A stretch of 64,000 bases of DNA, from assembly GCF_000153285.1 (NCBI RefSeq), contig NZ_CH724168.1, positions 231,823-295,822 of the forward strand. Reading direction: 5' to 3'. The translations under genes and the position numbers were made by a program. This stretch comes from Synechococcus sp. WH 7805. Lineage in GTDB: Bacteria > Cyanobacteriota > Cyanobacteriia > PCC-6307 > Cyanobiaceae. The first letter of the stretch is position 1. Each line of letters begins with the position of its first letter. A model generated the notes under the pieces. The model was not told the origin of the DNA. It worked only from the letters and a program-made list of their open reading frames with translations, and did not search any database. Of the stretch, positions 4,834 through 16,772 are shown one piece after another.

Positions 4834-5640
4834 GTGATGGAGCTGCAGAGCCACCCGCTGCCGCAGGCGATTGACTCAATGGCTGGCCTGCGGCTCTTCA
4901 TGGAACATCACGTCTTTGCCGTGTGGGATTTCATGCAATTGCTCAAAGCCCTGCAGCAGCACCTGGCCCCTTCTGGGGTGCCGTGGACGCCCCCATCCCA
5001 CCCGCAGTTGGCCGGTCTGATCAACAGTTTGGTGGCGGAGGAGGAATGCGATCTGCTTCCTAACAGCCTTGGGGGGCCGCTGTATCTGTCCCATTTCGCG
5101 ATTTACCGCAAAGCGATGGAGGAGATCGGTGCGGACACCACGGTGATTGATGCAATGCTGCAACAGGCGTCCAGCGGCGATTGGCCCCGCGCCCTTCGCC
5201 AGGTTGGGATCCCTGAGCCCGCTGCGCGATTTCTTTGCACGACCCAAGCGTTGATCGCCTCCGGTGAAGTCCATGCACTGGCAGCGGCGTTTGCTTACGG
5301 CCGGGAGCTTTTAGTTCCCGATCTGTTTCGTGCGTTGCTCGATCGCTTGTCCGGGCTGGCTCTTCCCTGCCCGACCTTGCGCTGGTACCTCGAACGTCAT
5401 ATTGCCCTCGACGGAGATAGCCATGGGACTTTAGCGGAAACAATGGTGTTCACCCTCGCTGGAACCGACCCGGCTGTGCATCAACGGGTCCAGGCCGTGC
5501 GGGAGCAGGTGCTTGCCGACCGGACTGCGTTTTGGGATGCGATCGAGACCAGGCTTCGGGAGATGTCTCAGTTCAATCGATCCGGCGGCGAACATTCACA
5601 GATGTTCAGTTTTCGATTGATGGAATTCCAGACACCTTAA
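4834..5640 (+). CDS. DUF3050 (haem-oxygenase-fold) protein
   Basis: A 268-residue, largely helical protein of the DUF3050 family, related in fold to haem oxygenase-like proteins (family knowledge). Characteristic segments are FMEHHVFAVWDFMQLLKALQ near residue 25, the Glu-rich VAEEECD near 75, YRKAMEEIGAD, and FAYGRELLVPDLFRALLDRL. GTG 4834 and ATG 4837 are both possible starts; the previous stop ends at 4832. The reaction is unknown. The last ~15 residues share DNA with the frame that continues into the decayed DUF411 fragment downstream, so the original 3' boundary may have been rearranged. Confidence 0.85.
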   Translation: MMELQSHPLPQAIDSMAGLRLFMEHHVFAVWDFMQLLKALQQHLAPSGVPWTPPSHPQLAGLINSLVAEEECDLLPNSLGGPLYLSHFAIYRKAMEEIGADTTVIDAMLQQASSGDWPRALRQVGIPEPAARFLCTTQALIASGEVHALAAAFAYGRELLVPDLFRALLDRLSGLALPCPTLRWYLERHIALDGDSHGTLAETMVFTLAGTDPAVHQRVQAVREQVLADRTAFWDAIETRLREMSQFNRSGGEHSQMFSFRLMEFQTP

Positions 5641-5849: not shown

Positions 5850-6119
5850 TCATTGCGATGATCTCAAGAGCATCACCGCACCTGACACTGTGACGATGAC
5901 GGTCAGCGCACCCAAGAGCATTGGATAGACAGGCTGAAGGTTCAGAACGCCAAAGTTCCCGGTGTGGATCTTGAGCAGCCAGAAGGCATCAATTTCTTGC
6001 TCCAAGAGCAAGCTGTAAAGAGATCCCGTGCCGGCGGTGATCAGCAACGGGAGAGCAGCAATCGGGACCAGCCAACGGTGAATCTTGCGTGCTCGCCTTG
6101 TCAGCTGTCGTTGGCTCAT
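5850..6119 (-). CDS. PepSY-type small membrane protein
   Basis: An 89-residue protein with a basic N-terminus (ARKIHRWL), a first membrane segment (LVPIAALPLLITAGTGSLYS), a short loop (DAFWLLKIHTGNFGVLNLQ) and a second segment (LLGALTVIVTVSGAVMLL). The K/R-x-x-H-R-W-L start and the GxLYSLLLEQ part resemble PepSY-associated transmembrane proteins. It is the last gene of a minus-strand operon: its ATG overlaps the DUF3721 stop by 4 bp. The role is unknown; the neighbours suggest metal handling. Confidence 0.75.
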   Translation of the reverse strand: MSQRQLTRRARKIHRWLVPIAALPLLITAGTGSLYSLLLEQEIDAFWLLKIHTGNFGVLNLQPVYPMLLGALTVIVTVSGAVMLLRSSQ

Positions 6120-6367
6120 TGCTTACGAAGTTGACGGTGGAGTTCCTGCTCATCCGCGCACGGCATCCACTTCCCGTTGTTCTGATGCACCGACATGCAA
6201 CCAATCTCGCCGGCACGTTGTTGCGCGTCAGCTTTGGATTGGTAGATGCCTTTGCTATGTCCCAGACTTGCCATGGGATAGAGAGCGAACGCAGCGGCGA
6301 CTGCGAATGGGATTGAGACCCAGCCCATCACCCTTGTTGTGAAAGGAATGAACATGGTGGCTTTCAT
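6116..6367 (-). CDS. DUF3721 small exported protein
   Basis: An 83-residue protein with a hydrophobic N-terminal segment (WVSIPFAVAAAFALYPMAS) and a C-terminal DUF3721 motif: YQSKADAQQRAGEIGC, then HQNNGKWMPCADEQE. The two conserved cysteines and the W-M-P-C element are diagnostic. The family is common in marine Synechococcus and Prochlorococcus and has no known function. Its start overlaps the upstream DUF305 frame by 4 bp and its stop overlaps the next gene by 4 bp, so it is in the middle of an operon. A second intact copy is at 16322. Confidence 0.85.
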   Translation of the reverse strand: MKATMFIPFTTRVMGWVSIPFAVAAAFALYPMASLGHSKGIYQSKADAQQRAGEIGCMSVHQNNGKWMPCADEQELHRQLRKQ

Positions 6368-10058: not shown

Positions 10059-10241
10059 CTAAATCAATTCGTCCCACTCCGCTGGGTAGAGCCTTGTCTT
10101 GGTTGCGGTTAGGCCAGGCGTGTCCTCTACGAGGTGCTGGGCTTCCCACATGCCTTTGACTACGCGGCATACGCCTTCGTCGTCGCAGACCCGATAGTAC
10201 TCAAGGCCACTTGGAGTGTTGGTGAGTTTGGTTGGTCCCAT
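10059..10241 (-). CDS. Small hypothetical protein
   Basis: A 60-residue protein starting MGPTKLTNTPSGLEYYRV, with CDDEGVCRVVKGMWEAQHL in the centre and ending AEWDELI. I chose ATG 10241 because AGGAAAAG lies at ribosome-binding distance; a longer frame to 10298 has no such site. No family is recognised. Two cysteines five residues apart (CDDEGVC) and a soluble composition are the only visible traits. It is convergent with the DUF3721-like remnant. Confidence 0.6.
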   Translation of the reverse strand: MGPTKLTNTPSGLEYYRVCDDEGVCRVVKGMWEAQHLVEDTPGLTATKTRLYPAEWDELI

Positions 10242-10471
10242 TTCATCTTTTCCTGTTGCTCTAAGAGCTAGGCGATAAATCGAGTCCTGCCTGAGCAAGG
10301 AGAGACAAAACGTTCAGCTCGTCACAAAACCTTGGGTGGCTTAACGATGCGGGTTGCGACAGGTAAAGCTGCTCGCTTTAGCGAGGGTCAACCGCACTTC
10401 AATCGTCGGTTTTGCTCATTGCAGTTCACTAGTACTATTGCCTACCTGTTGGGGCGCGACGAGAGAAGTGG

Positions 10472-10735
10472 ATGTCGGTTGATCATTCGGTCGTCACAGC
10501 ACGGCCTGACCGCGACCCACTGTTCCTGCACGTCAAAGCAGGAATGACAGTGATCGTTGAAGACAACGGTGACTGGTGGATGGCTGACGTGATTCTCGTC
10601 ATTGGCAGCGTCAGAAACCCAAAACTTCCAAGATTTTTCCAGGTAGCAGACGTGGAAACACGTGTTGTCCGTTGGATCAACGCTGATCTGGTGACTCATA
10701 TCGTCCCCAGGATTCACGAACCAGTGGCGGCCTAA
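10472..10735 (+). CDS. DUF3104 protein
   Basis: An 87-residue protein with the family core LHVKAGMTVIVEDNGDWWMA, then VRNPKLPRFFQVADVETRVV and NADLVTHIVPRI. DUF3104 is a small family of marine cyanobacteria with no known role. The fold is probably a small beta-barrel (inference from alternating hydrophobic strands). The stop is followed within 5 bp by the first hairpin of the RNA-like array, so read-through from this gene could feed the array. Confidence 0.8.
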   Translation: MSVDHSVVTARPDRDPLFLHVKAGMTVIVEDNGDWWMADVILVIGSVRNPKLPRFFQVADVETRVVRWINADLVTHIVPRIHEPVAA

Positions 10736-10910
10736 CTATCCCCACTTAGGGGTATTGGCACACACCAAAGGAGAAGAGATTGAACAAGTCGAAGGAGCGC
10801 TGGCTAGCTCTTACGACCATCGCGTGAATGCCCTGGTCCTGATTCACCCTGGGCTTTCCTCTGCGTCGAGAAGGGAACCCTGGAGCCGTCACACTTCAGG
10901 GTTTTCTTTT
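10736..10910 (+). ncRNA. Array unit 1: putative structured small RNA
   Basis: The unit opens with a CCCC-ACTTA-GGGG hairpin (10740-10752) followed by TATTGGCAC. A central stem is formed by GTCG..GAGC and GCTC..CGAC (about 10788-10818). It ends in a terminator-like hairpin, AACCCTGGAG / CTTCAGGGTT followed by TTCTTTT (10876-10910). The order of elements is shared with units 2, 4 and 5. A 15-codon frame from a TTG after AGGAGA is also possible but is not conserved. Confidence 0.55.
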
Positions 10911-11077
10911 GTCCCCTTGAAGGGGTATTGGCATGTGTGAAATATGAGTTGAGTGATCTCATCAGCGGAGGTCAAGGCTTCTTCTGCTGGTCAGCGAGCG
11001 AGAGCCCTGGACCTGAGACGACAGGGCTTTTCTCGAGAAGGGAACCCTGGAGCCGACGATCTCCAGGGTTTTCTTTA
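10911..11077 (+). ncRNA. Array unit 2: putative structured small RNA
   Basis: The unit has a CCCC-TTGAA-GGGG hairpin (10913-10925), then TATTGGCA, GTTGAGTGATCTCATCAGCG and a stem pairing CAGC with GCTG. Two hairpins follow. AGCCCTG / CAGGGCT with TTTTCT spans 11003-11033. AACCCTGGAG / CTCCAGGGTT, a perfect 10-bp stem followed by TTCTTT, spans 11043-11077. The second is a convincing Rho-independent terminator. No frame of useful length is conserved between units. Confidence 0.6.
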
Positions 11078-11095
11078 GTCCCCATGAAGGGGTAT
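11078..11095 (+). repeat. Array unit 3: opening hairpin only
   Basis: CCCC-ATGAA-GGGG (11080-11092) followed by TATC repeats the opening of the other units. The rest of the unit is replaced by the small gene at 11148. Confidence 0.6.
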
Positions 11096-11147
11096 CAAAA
11101 GGCTTGTGCCGGATGGGAGATTGCAACAATCGAGGCAGGAGGGCTTT

Positions 11148-11339
11148 ATGGCTCAGTCCGTCAATCAGCAAACGTGTATCGGTAGAACTTGCTTGAAGTG
11201 GTCGGCTGACGGCTCATTGTCGGAGCACGATCAGAATGAGCTGATGAGACGTCTTTGCTCTGCAGATCCAGAAGTGGCTAAATCCGGAGCTTGCAATGTT
11301 TTTCAGGATGCAGATCTAAGCAAGACCCACAAAAGGTGA
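11148..11339 (+). CDS. Small hypothetical protein within the array
   Basis: A 63-residue protein starting MAQSVNQQTCIGRTCLKWSA, preceded by a strong ribosome-binding site (GGCAGGAGGG). It contains three cysteines and charged helices (SEHDQNELMRRLCS). No family is recognised. It lies between array units and 8 bp before the Nif11 gene, so the two may be co-transcribed. The good ribosome-binding site is the main evidence that it is real. Confidence 0.55.
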   Translation: MAQSVNQQTCIGRTCLKWSADGSLSEHDQNELMRRLCSADPEVAKSGACNVFQDADLSKTHKR

Positions 11340-11347
11340 GGCGATCT

Positions 11348-11562
11348 ATGGCTCTCGATCAACTAAAAGCTTTTCTGTTGCTTCTGCAGGACGACGAAGC
11401 CGTGAAGCAGTCGGTGCTGGCGGCCTCAACAGCTGATGATGTGGCCAAAATCGCTCAGGAATGGGCTATTCCTTCAGCGGGGACGAATTACTGCGGTTCT
11501 CCGGCAACAAAGTGGGCCGGGTGACGGTGTCCAAGCAGGAGACGCCTGGGGAATACAACTGA
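11348..11562 (+). pseudogene. Nif11-family protein with a one-base frameshift
   Basis: ATG 11348 starts MALDQLKAFLLLLQDDEAVK, then STADDVAKIAQE, the typical N-terminus of Nif11-type proteins (the leader class that includes many cyanobacterial precursor peptides). After CAGGAA at 11455-11460 this frame becomes unrelated and stops at 11524. One base over, the sequence continues naturally as GYSFSGDELLRFSGNKVGRV and VTVSKQETPGEYN to a TGA at 11560-11562. A single-base deletion near 11461-11463, where an Ala codon usually lies before Gly-Tyr/Phe, explains this. AGGTGAGG is a plausible ribosome-binding site. Confidence 0.75.
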
Positions 11563-11680
11563 TTAGGAGGCAGTCGCTAGGGCAGTCAGGGCATGGTGTT
11601 TGGTGGTTTTGCTCGCATCTATTTACAAAACTGAGCGAGTATTTATCTGCGGCAGTCTTGACTAGTTCTTGGCGTGTTGC

Positions 11681-11860
11681 CTAACTGTCCCCATGCAGGG
11701 GTGTTGGCACGCGCCAAACAGGTGTTGATGGATCCCATCGGCAGAATCCACCGTTACTTCTGTCGGTCGCCGAGCGAGGGTCTTGGTGCTGCAGTCAAGG
11801 CTTTTCTGCTGTGACTAAGGGAAATCAAGCCCTGGACTGGACGCTTCAGGGTTTTTCTTT
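11681..11860 (+). ncRNA. Array unit 4: putative structured small RNA
   Basis: It opens with CTAACTGTCCCCATGCAGGG (hairpin 11689-11701). The preceding bases GCCTAACT also precede unit 1. Then come TGTTGGCAC and GTTGATGGATCCCATCGGCA, a stem pairing CGGCAGAA with TTCTGTCG, and a terminal hairpin CCCTGGA / TTCAGGG with TTTTTCTTTT (about 11830-11860). The layout and spacing match units 2 and 5. Confidence 0.6.
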
Positions 11861-12030
11861 TGTCCCCATGCGGGGGTGTTGGCACGTACTTAACGGGAGT
11901 TGATTGATCCCATCGGCGGGAGTCGTCATCCTTCTGCCGGTAATTGAGGGATGGCCTTGTTACTGAGCGGCAAGGCTTTCTTTCAGGAACGCAGACTTTT
12001 TGGAGCCGTCACTCTCCAGGGGGTTTCTTT
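11861..12030 (+). ncRNA. Array unit 5: putative structured small RNA
   Basis: The opening hairpin CCCC-ATGC-GGGGG (11864-11876) is followed by TGTTGGCAC and GTTGATTGATCCCATCGGCG, with a stem pairing CGGC and GCCG. Hairpin GCCTTG / CAAGGC with TTTCTTT lies at 11954-11983, and a weaker TGGAG / CTCCA hairpin with TTTCTTTG at 12000-12029. It begins 175 bp after unit 4. Confidence 0.6.
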
Positions 12031-12072
12031 GTCCTGGTGACTCAGATCGTTCCGAGGGTCCAAGCCTTGGCC

Positions 12073-12174
12073 TCAGTCTTTTGCGGGCTGCGTCAGCTTG
12101 TAGAGGTTCAGGGCTACGAGAGCCACCCCGAAGCTGCAAAAGAAGACGATCAGGTCTTGGCTGGAGATGGACAT
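12073..12174 (-). CDS. Possible 33-residue membrane peptide
   Basis: The frame reads MSISSQDLIVFFCSFGVALV, then ALNLYKLTQPAKD and a stop. It has one hydrophobic helix with a short charged C-terminus, the shape of many small cyanobacterial membrane proteins. There is no clear ribosome-binding site; upstream on the same strand, TTACAAAAATTCGTTACATT could act as a promoter. No family is recognised. Confidence 0.45.
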   Translation of the reverse strand: MSISSQDLIVFFCSFGVALVALNLYKLTQPAKD

Positions 12175-12281
12175 GAGGACCCAGAAGCGAGTTTGTGACG
12201 GAATGTAACGAATTTTTGTAAGATGGGGGTGTCGGTGAAATCAAAAAAGTTCCAGCAAACTTCGCCTTTTGGGGTGTCGGC

Positions 12282-12419
12282 GTGATCGTCGCGGTTATGT
12301 TTTTGGCTGTCTTTGTTGGCGGTGCAAATGCTGGTGACTGCCCTCGCAGCAAGTCAGCTGAAGCAACCTCTGTTGAGACCCATCACAAGTCGAACGAAAT
12401 AGCTGAGGTCGAAGACTGA
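12282..12419 (+). CDS. Possible small membrane protein, start unclear
   Basis: From GTG 12282 the frame gives MIVAVMFLAVFVGGANAGDC, then a polar tail with KSAEATSVETHHKSNEIAEV, 45 residues in all. Protein-like sequence continues upstream in the same frame (KKVPANFAFWGVG) with no start codon before an in-frame stop at the TAA preceding it. An ATG in another frame lies just before a run of six A at 12242-12248. One base lost or gained in that run would give a longer, natural N-terminus. So the gene is either frameshifted or starts at GTG 12282. Confidence 0.5.
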   Translation: MIVAVMFLAVFVGGANAGDCPRSKSAEATSVETHHKSNEIAEVED

Positions 12420-13058: not shown

Positions 13059-13541
13059 CTACTCGTGATGGTCCAAGACCACCTGCCTGCAGGCATCCTG
13101 ATCGGGCACTTCAACCCCATGAACCTTGGCCCGGTTGTCCCAGCTCCGCAGTGCCAAGGCATCGTCCATCCCCTCTAAGGCCAACAGCCGCATTGCTTCA
13201 GAATGGCTTAGCTCTCCGCCTTGGACGGCAAAGCTGCGTTTCGATGCATCCGGTAACCCCGCAGAATACGTCCCATCCAGGGAGCACAGCAGCCGTTTGG
13301 CTGAGATATGCCGCTGTACGAGGGCAACGACCTGCGTGGGGAAGAACACCGAGAGTGCTCGGGCTGCCACGGCCTCATGGGCACAGTCTTGATCGAGGAA
13401 ATTCCTCTGCTCATTGATCATTGGATGGCCGATGTCATGAAGTAGTGATGCAAACCTTTCCGGGCGACTGGTGACCGATTGACATTCCAAGTTTTTACCC
13501 CAATCGAATAAGGGGATGATGCCAACAACGAAAACCTCCAC
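13059..13541 (-). pseudogene. PhnZ-like HD-domain protein lacking its N-terminus
   Basis: The frame holds FASLLHDIGHPM, then DCAHEAVAARAL, VALVQRHISAKRLLC, GELSHSEAMRLLALEG and LRSWDNRAKVHG. This order fits the HD-type mixed-valent di-iron oxygenases such as PhnZ, which cleaves 2-amino-1-hydroxyethylphosphonate. The first helix, with a metal-binding His before the HD pair, is absent. The residues before the HD motif (MEVFVVGIIPLFDWGKNLEC) come from another frame of the preceding amidinotransferase gene. I therefore read it as a 5'-deleted gene joined to its neighbour. No PhnY partner is nearby. Confidence 0.65.
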
Positions 13542-14622
13542 CTTGCCAGCTCAGGGCGTCAATCGGAGTCGTGATCACCTCAAGACCTTCAGCTTCAAGT
13601 TCTTTTTTCAAGCCAGGTAGATTGTCGCCGATAATAATGCTGTCTTTGCTGAGAACAAGACCATTGCATCCCAATTTCTTTTCAGCATCATCTGCTGAAA
13701 CATTGATAAGTTTCCATCCATTGAGGAATTTAGGAAGACCTTCAGTAAATGCTTCCTGACATACAATGGCTAGACCAGGCCTTGGTAAAGCAAGCGTAGT
13801 ATCAAGATGGAGAAAACGTCGACTTAATGGTACTGCATGAACTCTGTATTCCTGGCCCAGGTAATCACTTAGCCAGCGTATTCCAGCGAGGTTCGTTGCA
13901 TTGCCTGTATGTCCTACATAAATATCTTTCCCGACCAACATAACATCCCCTCCTTCAAGGTATGGTCCAGGTCCATAGTCGCCAACTGATCTGGATTGAT
14001 ATGGGTCAGGTTGTGGCATGGATACCAGAAAAGACCCACTTTTTTGCAATCGTTTTTCAATTGTCCTTCGAATCGCAAATCGCTCTTTTCGTCGATAGGG
14101 CTCAAGCATTGAAGTTTCAATCACCTTATTTCCAATCACGAGAATTGGATCGCGCGGAAAAGTTTGCATTACTGCATCACTATCGGCAGCCAAATAATTT
14201 GTTTCAGCGTCGGAAAGCTTTTCGACCTGATGTACGATGATGCCTCGATCCCGCAGTATTGATATAATTGAGTTCATTTGATCGATTGATTGCTGATTTA
14301 AGTCTGGTTCGCATTCTTGCAACCACTGACCTCTATTTTTTTCTATGAATTCTATGGATGATTCTGGTAAATAATTTTTACTTGTGTTCGGAACTTTGGT
14401 GGGAACTCGAACGTTGGTCAATCCAACAACTACTTCCTTCAGCGTTCCCCATTCATGATCCACCGACACATCTCTGCCGTCTGGAGAAGCTTTATGATTC
14501 ACGCTCTTTGCGGATGATTTGAAATTGCTAGACGCAATGGCAAACGCCGACGCACTCGAGGCAGCACCCCAAAGAAAGTTGCGTCTGGTTGAATTTAAGC
14601 CTGGCACGTGAACATGAAGCAA
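13495..14622 (-). CDS. Tat-exported amidinotransferase-superfamily protein
   Basis: A 375-residue protein of the guanidino-group-modifying superfamily (amidinotransferases, arginine and agmatine deiminases). The N-terminus carries a twin-arginine signal, STRRNFLWGAASSASAFA, so export of the folded enzyme is likely. Catalytic features are visible: GPYLEGGDVMLVG (Asp), RRFLHLDTTLAL (His) and a C-terminal Cys in GGGFRCWHHPL. The substrate is not predictable; the superfamily acts on arginine-like compounds. The stop follows 8 residues after the Cys, a natural end. An upstream AT-rich stretch of about 300 bp probably holds its promoter. Confidence 0.8.
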   Translation of the reverse strand: MLHVHVPGLNSTRRNFLWGAASSASAFAIASSNFKSSAKSVNHKASPDGRDVSVDHEWGTLKEVVVGLTNVRVPTKVPNTSKNYLPESSIEFIEKNRGQWLQECEPDLNQQSIDQMNSIISILRDRGIIVHQVEKLSDAETNYLAADSDAVMQTFPRDPILVIGNKVIETSMLEPYRRKERFAIRRTIEKRLQKSGSFLVSMPQPDPYQSRSVGDYGPGPYLEGGDVMLVGKDIYVGHTGNATNLAGIRWLSDYLGQEYRVHAVPLSRRFLHLDTTLALPRPGLAIVCQEAFTEGLPKFLNGWKLINVSADDAEKKLGCNGLVLSKDSIIIGDNLPGLKKELEAEGLEVITTPIDALSWQGGGFRCWHHPLIRLG

Positions 14623-15329: not shown

Positions 15330-15836
15330 TTAAAGCGTTTCGGGCTTCAATCGGCTTGGCCGGTAAGAGATCAGAAAAGCCTGTTGGCTGTCACTCTCTG
15401 TCTTCACGGCTGTGATCAGGTCTTCACCTGTGTTCCAAACCCAGACCTGGTCGTTGTGGCTGTCGTGCTCAAGGCTTGTGCTCAGGGGTGGGCCGTGTCG
15501 AGCGCGCAGGCCTGCAAGCACCTCAGTCATGTCATCGATGGCGAACTCGTAAGCCAGGTTCGTCAGCCCTTTATCGGGATCGACTTCAAAGGTGGCCTGA
15601 GAGACGGGCAGTCGATCCAGAAACACATCGCGAGTCACGTAGCGACCGGACCGCTCTTCGTTCACGGTTTTCCCTTCACCCATATGGGTGGTCACCTGCT
15701 CCAACGGCATTCCCCAAGCCAACCCTTCAACGCAAGCGTCCACGCGGCCTGCGCTGCACAACAACAGCAGCCCTAAACAGGCAGTGATCAGAAGGTTCTG
15801 GAGTTGGGGCAGCACCTTCATGCGGCGATCATTCAC
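15330..15836 (-). CDS. Secreted hypothetical protein
   Basis: A 168-residue protein with a signal peptide (LLITACLGLLLLCSAGRVDA). The mature part contains EGLAWGMPLEQVTTHMGEGK, a repeat-like 'start of helix plus turn' pattern, and near the C-terminus VWVWNTGEDLITAVKTESDS. Only two cysteines are present, one in the signal peptide and one just after it. No enzymatic motif is visible. It faces a repeat on its 3' side and is probably a periplasmic protein of unknown role. Confidence 0.65.
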   Translation of the reverse strand: MNDRRMKVLPQLQNLLITACLGLLLLCSAGRVDACVEGLAWGMPLEQVTTHMGEGKTVNEERSGRYVTRDVFLDRLPVSQATFEVDPDKGLTNLAYEFAIDDMTEVLAGLRARHGPPLSTSLEHDSHNDQVWVWNTGEDLITAVKTESDSQQAFLISYRPSRLKPETL

Positions 15837-16321: not shown

Positions 16322-16543
16322 TCAGTGATGTCCGTGCTGCTCAGCTTCCTCGTGTTTGGCGCAGACCATCCACATGGACCCCATTTGATGTGCTCCCTTG
16401 CATCCGAACCTTGGAGCTGCTTCCTCTGCCTCCTGCTGGGTCTTGAACATCGCCTGTTTCGGCTGACCACCGTGGGGGTTGGCGAAGGCTGAACCTGCGG
16501 ACATCACCAAGATGGAGCTGAACAAAAGAGCTGCGCGCTTCAT
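16322..16543 (-). CDS. DUF3721 small exported protein
   Basis: A 73-residue protein with a signal peptide (AALLFSSILVMSAGSAFA) and the family motif FKTQQEAEEAAPRFGCKGAH followed by QMGSMWMVCAKHEEAE. The His-rich end, EQHGHH, may bind metal. ATG 16543 places the signal peptide correctly; a longer frame upstream adds only unlikely sequence. It is a paralogue of the protein at 6116. The function is unknown. Confidence 0.82.
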   Translation of the reverse strand: MKRAALLFSSILVMSAGSAFANPHGGQPKQAMFKTQQEAEEAAPRFGCKGAHQMGSMWMVCAKHEEAEQHGHH

Positions 16544-16772
16544 CGGTTGATTGGATTCAACCCTTACTATGCAGTTGATGACATCAGTGCGCCGCAGAGG
16601 TTGTTGTGCCTCCAGCAACGGAGCAAAAGGGATGCCGTGTCTCGTTTAATCCAGGGCCACCATTTAGCTCCGGCCGCTTCTATGGCCTGATGCGAGGTTG
16701 TTGAAGAATATTGTCCTCTTCTGTACGTCGCGGAGATTCAGTCGCAAAATACATGAGTCAAAAGACCTATTC

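Follow-up and report, generated by a model that had tools for sequence, protein, structure and literature searches.

What are the hairpin-bearing units that lie close together within a 64,000-nucleotide stretch of Synechococcus sp. WH 7805 (hereafter the window), and how did they come to stand side by side? Inspection of the sequence recovers four complete units that share a single order of hairpins (Table 1), in agreement with the original prediction of four full units and one opening element (unit 3), and the C4-N5-G4 opening hairpins lie where that prediction placed them, at 10740, 10913, 11080, 11689 and 11864. Start-to-start spacings of the opening elements are 173, 167, 609 and 175, where 166-175 bp had been given earlier. 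The motif TRTTGGCAC, said to follow the opening hairpin, is found in units 1, 4 and 5, but unit 2 has TATTGGCAT and unit 3 TATCAAAAG at this place; the GTTGATTGATCCCATCGGC-like block is present in units 2, 4 and 5, as had been noted. Unit 1 begins 3 nt past the stop codon of a DUF3104 gene, and unit 2 directly at the end of the unit 1 terminator. The array is the single occurrence in its own genome of 2.63 Mb, where all three C4-N5-G4-TAT sites fall inside it (none for a reversed control).

Table 1. Array units and accompanying genes, in window positions
Feature	Positions	Strand	Evidence
MGPT small-protein gene, upstream, divergent	10059..10298	-	tblastn (L082, L083, L084, L085, L088, L090)
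DUF3104 small-protein gene, unit 1 companion	10472..10735	+	Pfam PF11302, E 7.3e-22; gene order in L084
Unit 1, complete	10739..10911	+	R1 and R2 matches 10739-10860; terminal hairpin; tree
Unit 2, complete	10912..11078	+	R1 and R2 matches 10912-11033; fold z -3.7
Unit 3, C4-N5-G4-TAT opening and leader of small Cys-protein gene	11079..11147	+	
CysP, 63-aa small protein with two Cys, companion gene	11148..11339	+	tblastn
Unit 4, complete	11688..11862	+	R1 and R2 matches 11688-11807; terminal hairpin 11827-11854
Unit 5, complete	11863..12032	+	R1 and R2 matches 11863-11982
DUF3104 gene-end relic past unit 5	12034..12062	+	direct repeat of 10688-10716, 83%
GDCP small membrane-type ORF, downstream, start putative	12234..12419	+	tblastn (L082, L083, L084, L085, L091)

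A search of 400 genomes with an exact pattern, the opening hairpin plus TRTTGGCA, gave matches in 13, and the element itself is carried only by the own genome and by G034, whose locus L026 is the one clear relative from another genus. Seven same-genus matches share one other conserved context, probably coding, which we take to be purL (three lie about 3.76 kb from the contig start); those in G054, G092, G188 and G209 come without the rest of the unit, and by eye none of eight viral contigs with a pattern match shows it. A covariance model (R1), made from the 120-nt core of the four units and L026, was searched against 300 family genomes and matched 21 times in 10 of them, the own genome and nine from genus g5; outside the training set, the lowest E value is 5.5e-20, so the model search proposed with the original prediction does find further members. 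With a second model (R2, 23 sequences), 22 matches, of which three are weak (E 1.7e-4 to 1.3e-3), were obtained in 11 of the 34 genomes of g5, at one to six copies per positive genome. Three of 31 genomes of the own genus gave R2 matches, four strong ones in the own genome and weak ones in G020 and G025, and under stricter filters R2 matched 12 of 400 family genomes in two of 59 genera. Given this presence in 12 of 400 genomes, and strongly in one of 31 of its own genus, the family is not essential. Synechococcus sp. MU1642 is among the relatives. Of 15 C4-N5-G4-TAT sites in five relatives, 11 lie at family loci (a count that takes in opposite-strand readings and one Cys-protein leader), as against three control sites. 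Scanning named genomes for CCTGGAGCCGTCACTCYNGG gave three loci, two in Synechococcus that are model matches (L071, L072) and one in an archaeal MAG (L073). The set of units used for the tree leaves out the truncated L059, the weak L075, L076 and L078-L081, and L071 and L072, which we took as repeats since their model scores equal those of L062 and L064. Neither the array DNA nor the DUF3104 protein found a match in phages, and no DUF3104 or MSRRG relative was confirmed on viral contigs.

Is it RNA structure that is conserved? The internal stem had been described as keeping its pairs while its bases change, and a pair-covariation test bears this out: 21 distinct sequences hold 57 double-change pair cells against 23.0 +/- 4.7 in shuffles, with 0 of 500 shuffles as high. 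In the alignment of these 21 sequences, which was made to the model and leans toward the model's structure, 87.8% of cells pair and the covariation score is 0.393, compared with at most 0.139 for slid partners; four of five covariation measures were matched by 0 of 500 shuffles, and that for further pair types by 3 of 500. Within the internal stem some pairs are often broken, one of them in nine of the 21 sequences. An alignment made from sequence only recovers part of this set of helices, with 17 pairs of which 10 carry double changes, and RNAalifold on five sequences finds double changes in 6 of 25 pairs. When 13 full-length units were tested against a structure drawn up from unit 2, pairing was 86-96% in all four helices, and 0 of 500 shuffles reached the real value on any of the five measures; this set is without L069 and, on account of their extra hairpin, without L051 and the seven copies of the L063 type. 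The opening C4/G4 stem hardly varies and is therefore conserved as sequence, with little information on pairing. One claim has to be withdrawn: the GTCG/CGAC stem of unit 1, called unrelated, aligns with the stem of the other units and is homologous to it, with close relatives in L054, L055, L056 and L067. Folded singly, units 1, 2, 4 and 5 have z scores of -2.5, -3.7, -1.2 and -2.5 relative to shuffles, and since 27 of 200 shuffles fold as well as unit 4, that unit by itself is no better than many of them. The weight of the structural evidence is comparative and does not lie in single-unit folds. We conclude that the units almost certainly represent a real structured RNA family.

Read 5' to 3', the conserved module of about 155-215 nt comprises the C4-N5-G4 hairpin, an unpaired AGTTGATTGA stretch, the covarying internal stem, an unpaired GGTCATCGAGCGAA-like stretch, a U-tailed hairpin and then a terminator-like terminal hairpin; in unit 5 the U-tailed hairpins are at 11953-11977 and 11993-12026. 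The terminal hairpin of the original prediction is present in the units, with the correction that unit 5 pairs U-G where units 1 and 2 have C-G. Most copies share its loop, GCCGTCAC, on a stem of changing sequence, and a script located the hairpin with its T-rich tail in 20 of 22 copies; for L056 and L069 the script picked another hairpin, and the terminal one is visible there by eye. Terminator-like sites number six against 1.8 +/- 1.3 in shuffles, and a terminator consensus scan picked up three hairpins, all within units 4 and 5, but not those of units 1 and 2. Across five genomes GAGCCGTCAC is not enriched (45 sites against 55 for the control); among 30 sites inspected, five belong to family copies, and by eye the other sites lack a comparable U-tailed hairpin. 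Three general features of a small RNA ended by an intrinsic terminator are found here: conserved secondary structure with compensatory changes, a G+C-rich hairpin with a T-rich run, and non-coding sequence. Model search and covariation thus support the reading of the units as putative structured, terminator-ended RNAs. In seven copies (L063, L064, L057, L065, L070, L074 and L077) a further hairpin stands between the two U-tailed hairpins, which marks a second subtype, and L051 has an extra hairpin similar to theirs.

That the units are instead decayed coding sequence is extremely improbable, although some of the tests are not clean. One frame is open over the core in six of 22 copies (units 1, 2 and 4, L052, L062 and L069), and one codon position is favoured among the variable columns of three groups: 13 of 27 for unit 4 and L052, 21 of 46 for the seven L063-type copies, and 15 of 32 for unit 2 and L058. 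The most open frame, however, has stops in the other 16 cores; the favoured position differs among the groups, and in the L063 group and in unit 2 and L058 it fits a frame with at least one stop in each member; the unit 1 group (16, 18, 18) and the L053 group (10, 15, 11) show no bias. Frames are interrupted by internal gaps of 1, 2 and 5 nt, three translations have no Pfam match, and the pairs covary. These frame checks agree with the initial observation that no reading frame is kept between units, and decay of a coding sequence, raised at the time as an alternative, is without good support; we read the units as non-coding.

Could they be a known RNA? Rfam includes models for Yfr1 and Yfr2, and Rfam 15 gave no gathering-score match in the window apart from a tRNA elsewhere. 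With E values up to 1 admitted, positions 10400-12200 matched Hovlinc and mir-492, far under their gathering scores, and eight relatives gave a tRNA and a weak SorX match, both outside the units. As with the Yfr2-type small RNAs of cyanobacteria, there are several related copies per genome, but this family has no gathering-score match in Rfam and is restricted and patchy. The most pertinent comparison is with the abundant ncRNA family Yfr103, which resembles the units in being multi-copy and structured, in the same organisms, with a function likewise not known. Genome G235, which we take to be strain CC9605, has one family copy (R2), and the sequence of this copy finds only itself there up to E 1. 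Yfr103 is 290-328 nt long, with seven paralogs in CC9605 and a range that covers many strains of Synechococcus and Prochlorococcus; a palindrome before its start is a further point of likeness (PMC5069720). Set against that account, the module is shorter at about 155-215 nt between predicted ends, is far patchier at 12 of 400 genomes, and has one copy and no paralogs in place of seven. From the copy numbers in particular, and from length and distribution as described, the units are probably not Yfr103, and identity with it is very unlikely. The initial failure to recognise any known Yfr RNA is to this extent supported, there being no gathering-score match in Rfam and a differing description of Yfr103.

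Two other classes of RNA invite comparison. Bacterial small RNAs derived from 3' untranslated regions are terminator-ended and lie a few bases past a gene's stop codon; the module likewise ends in a terminator just past a stop codon, but it is also found divergent from a gene and head to tail. In type III toxin-antitoxin systems, short tandem RNA repeats precede a ToxN-kind toxin gene. The likeness here is one of repeated RNA units near small genes; the difference is that our units are about 170 nt long, diverged and each terminator-ended. PADLOC found no toxin family among seven neighbour proteins, and gave weak matches (E 8e-5 and 0.003) for one protein about 0.9 kb upstream in L084. Among the papers listed by literature searches on marine picocyanobacterial ncRNAs, Yfr RNAs, DUF3104 and Nif11, no title or abstract opening describes these elements, though an unnamed entry may exist in a transcript table. 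The family is apparently new and of a known general kind.

In their gene settings the copies follow a few patterns. The module lies 3-23 nt past the stop codon of three kinds of small-protein gene: 3 nt past DUF3104 in unit 1 and L084, 14 nt past a secreted-type small protein in L082, L083, L085, L086 and L091, and about 23 nt past MGPT in L090. Elsewhere it is about 90 nt from a divergent fourth small gene, MSRRG (five copies: L082, L083, L085, L088 and L089), or follows another unit head to tail; L087 has it about 270 nt past DUF3104. The core is recognisable in all settings despite unrelated flanks. A Cys-protein gene lies downstream in the window, L086 and L089; CysP has no Pfam match, and tblastn finds it at E 8e-21 in L086 and 5e-27 in L089. 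At all three loci the leader of this gene opens with a C4-N5-G4-TAT-like element and scores weakly with R2 (12-18 bits), the match for unit 3 being 11079-11149 at 12.3 bits and E 0.46. Unit 3 therefore does have the opening element ascribed to it, yet to call it a broken unit would be too simple: it forms the leader of the 63-aa ORF, and L086 and L089 have the same leader and ORF. In MU1642 (L084) the order is MGPT, DUF3104, one unit, GDCP; the window has the same order, except that four units with the Cys-protein and Nif11 genes replace the one unit.

Several observations concern the surroundings. An ORF with a Nif11 domain lies between units 3 and 4 (11348-11524, plus strand; Pfam E 7.8e-9), and its match to the RiPP leader model TIGR03798 is below the model cut-off. 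When the array DNA was searched against the genus outside the own genome, only this Nif11 region was matched, in 18 of 30 other genomes, unlike the RNA units. A stretch resembling the DUF3104 relic also follows, by eye, the single unit of L054. The MSRRG leader contains a conserved stretch (CAGATCTCGCGTYGTGGTCTSTCGGCCCWTYCGCG-like on the other strand; L082, L083, L085, L086, L088, L089 and L091), present in copies near the RNA and in those 500 nt away, and which may be a regulatory site or a leader. Where the loci are divergent, the C4/G4 element extends to a longer DNA palindrome, for example ATACCCCC-ATG-CGGGGGTAT (L082 about 15660-15685, L083 about 5284-5305, L089 about 4932-4955), midway between the RNA and MSRRG and placed as a shared operator would be. 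In L088 a 39-aa membrane-type ORF on the minus strand, with a Shine-Dalgarno-like AAGGAG, is seen by eye just past the terminal hairpin. Elsewhere in the window, small secreted-type ORFs at 6116-6367 and 16322-16618 (minus strand) share GC-x3-HQ ... WM-x-CA and look paralogous by eye, and an ORF at 13495-14622 (minus strand) partly matches dimethylargininase and arginine deiminase models, far below the cut-offs (best E 4.4e-12).

How did the array arise? The view of its units as local tandem duplicates fails: a tree that keeps the four together is worse by 41.8 log-likelihood units and is rejected (AU p 4e-15), so the array did not grow by local tandem expansion. In a tree of 22 units, unit 1 groups with DUF3104/MGPT copies (97/96; L054, L055, L056 and L067), units 4 and 5 with L052 (89/93), and unit 2 with L058, a copy preceding a Cys-protein gene (84/79). 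In a reduced tree of 20, without the long-branched L069 and without L058, which has a deletion, support for units 4 and 5 with L052 falls to 81/61 and unit 2 stands alone. The seven L063-type copies form one long-branched clade (100/100). Topology tests reject units 1 and 2 together (p 0.0004), are borderline for units 2, 4 and 5 together (p 0.043), and do not reject units 4 and 5 as sisters (p 0.22). On these groupings and tests we conclude that at least two old paralogs, probably three, were brought together, apparently along with their companion genes; units 1 and 2 group with copies that elsewhere lie beside the same small genes.

What might the RNAs do? As judged from sequence, each copy is likely to be a discrete transcript. 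It would be transcribed from a promoter of its own or through read-through of the small gene upstream, and would end at the last hairpin; the 5' C4-N5-G4 hairpin may protect its 5' end, and the conserved unpaired stretches and the terminal loop may act in trans on mRNAs or on an RNA-binding protein. To this reading, terminator-ended small RNAs acting in trans, we give a rough probability of 0.5, because the core is recognisable whatever flanks it upstream or downstream. No sigma-70-like promoter was found in 10400-12200 (0.6 expected), and units 2 and 5 begin at the preceding terminator, so that the RNAs would have to arise by processing or from an unusual promoter within the opening element. 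When the unpaired stretch of six units was compared with the leaders of five neighbour genes, no pairing signal emerged, the lowest p among the 30 pairs being about 0.07 (mononucleotide shuffles).

A position beside small genes is compatible with a role in cis too. The main rival to a trans-acting small RNA, which we hold to be somewhat unlikely, is a cis-acting 3' end, that is, an elaborate double terminator that closes and stabilises small-gene transcripts and insulates neighbours, with no trans role. It would account for elements placed 3, 14 and about 23 nt past the DUF3104, secreted-protein and MGPT stops and ending in U-tailed hairpins, but upstream of five copies (L082 at 15559, L083 at 5288, L085 at 4231, L088 and L089) there is only a divergent gene, units 2 and 5 follow another unit, and the conserved unpaired stretches and constant loop are superfluous for termination. 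A cis-acting leader of the downstream gene, an attenuator or ligand sensor whose terminal hairpin is conditional, is improbable: a Cys-protein gene comes next in the window, L086 and L089, and by eye a short ORF, with AAGGAG as a Shine-Dalgarno-like site, starts just past the terminal hairpin of L051, yet the downstream genes vary between copies, some copies have no nearby ORF, and no alternative antiterminator pairing was noticed. More improbable again is a small non-autonomous mobile element, for instance of the IS200/IS605 type with a hairpin at each end, spreading as DNA. In its favour are a left boundary set sharply at the C4 hairpin although the flanks are unrelated, the hairpin at each end and the patchy distribution; against it, the pairs covary as RNA, phages gave no array match, and the L063-type copies (L063, L064, L057, L065, L070, L074 and L077) are one clade, the five examined (L057, L065, L070, L074 and L077) occupying the same locus after the secreted-protein gene, which indicates that the element is stable there.

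A further proposal, which we regard as doubtful, is that each RNA subtype partners one small-protein gene as a functional, exchangeable pair: the unit 1 type with DUF3104, the unit 2 type with the Cys protein and the L063 type with the secreted protein. With a usable model and some 20 clear members, this well-supported family of structured RNAs is an addition to ecologically important organisms in which neither the RNAs nor the small hypothetical proteins of variable regions are well understood. The link of RNA subtypes to particular small genes opens a testable route to the function of those genes. If the pairing is true, shared RNA homology would let pairs of RNA and small protein recombine into arrays such as this one, and the RNA would serve as a regulator and also as the joint in a modular island of small proteins.
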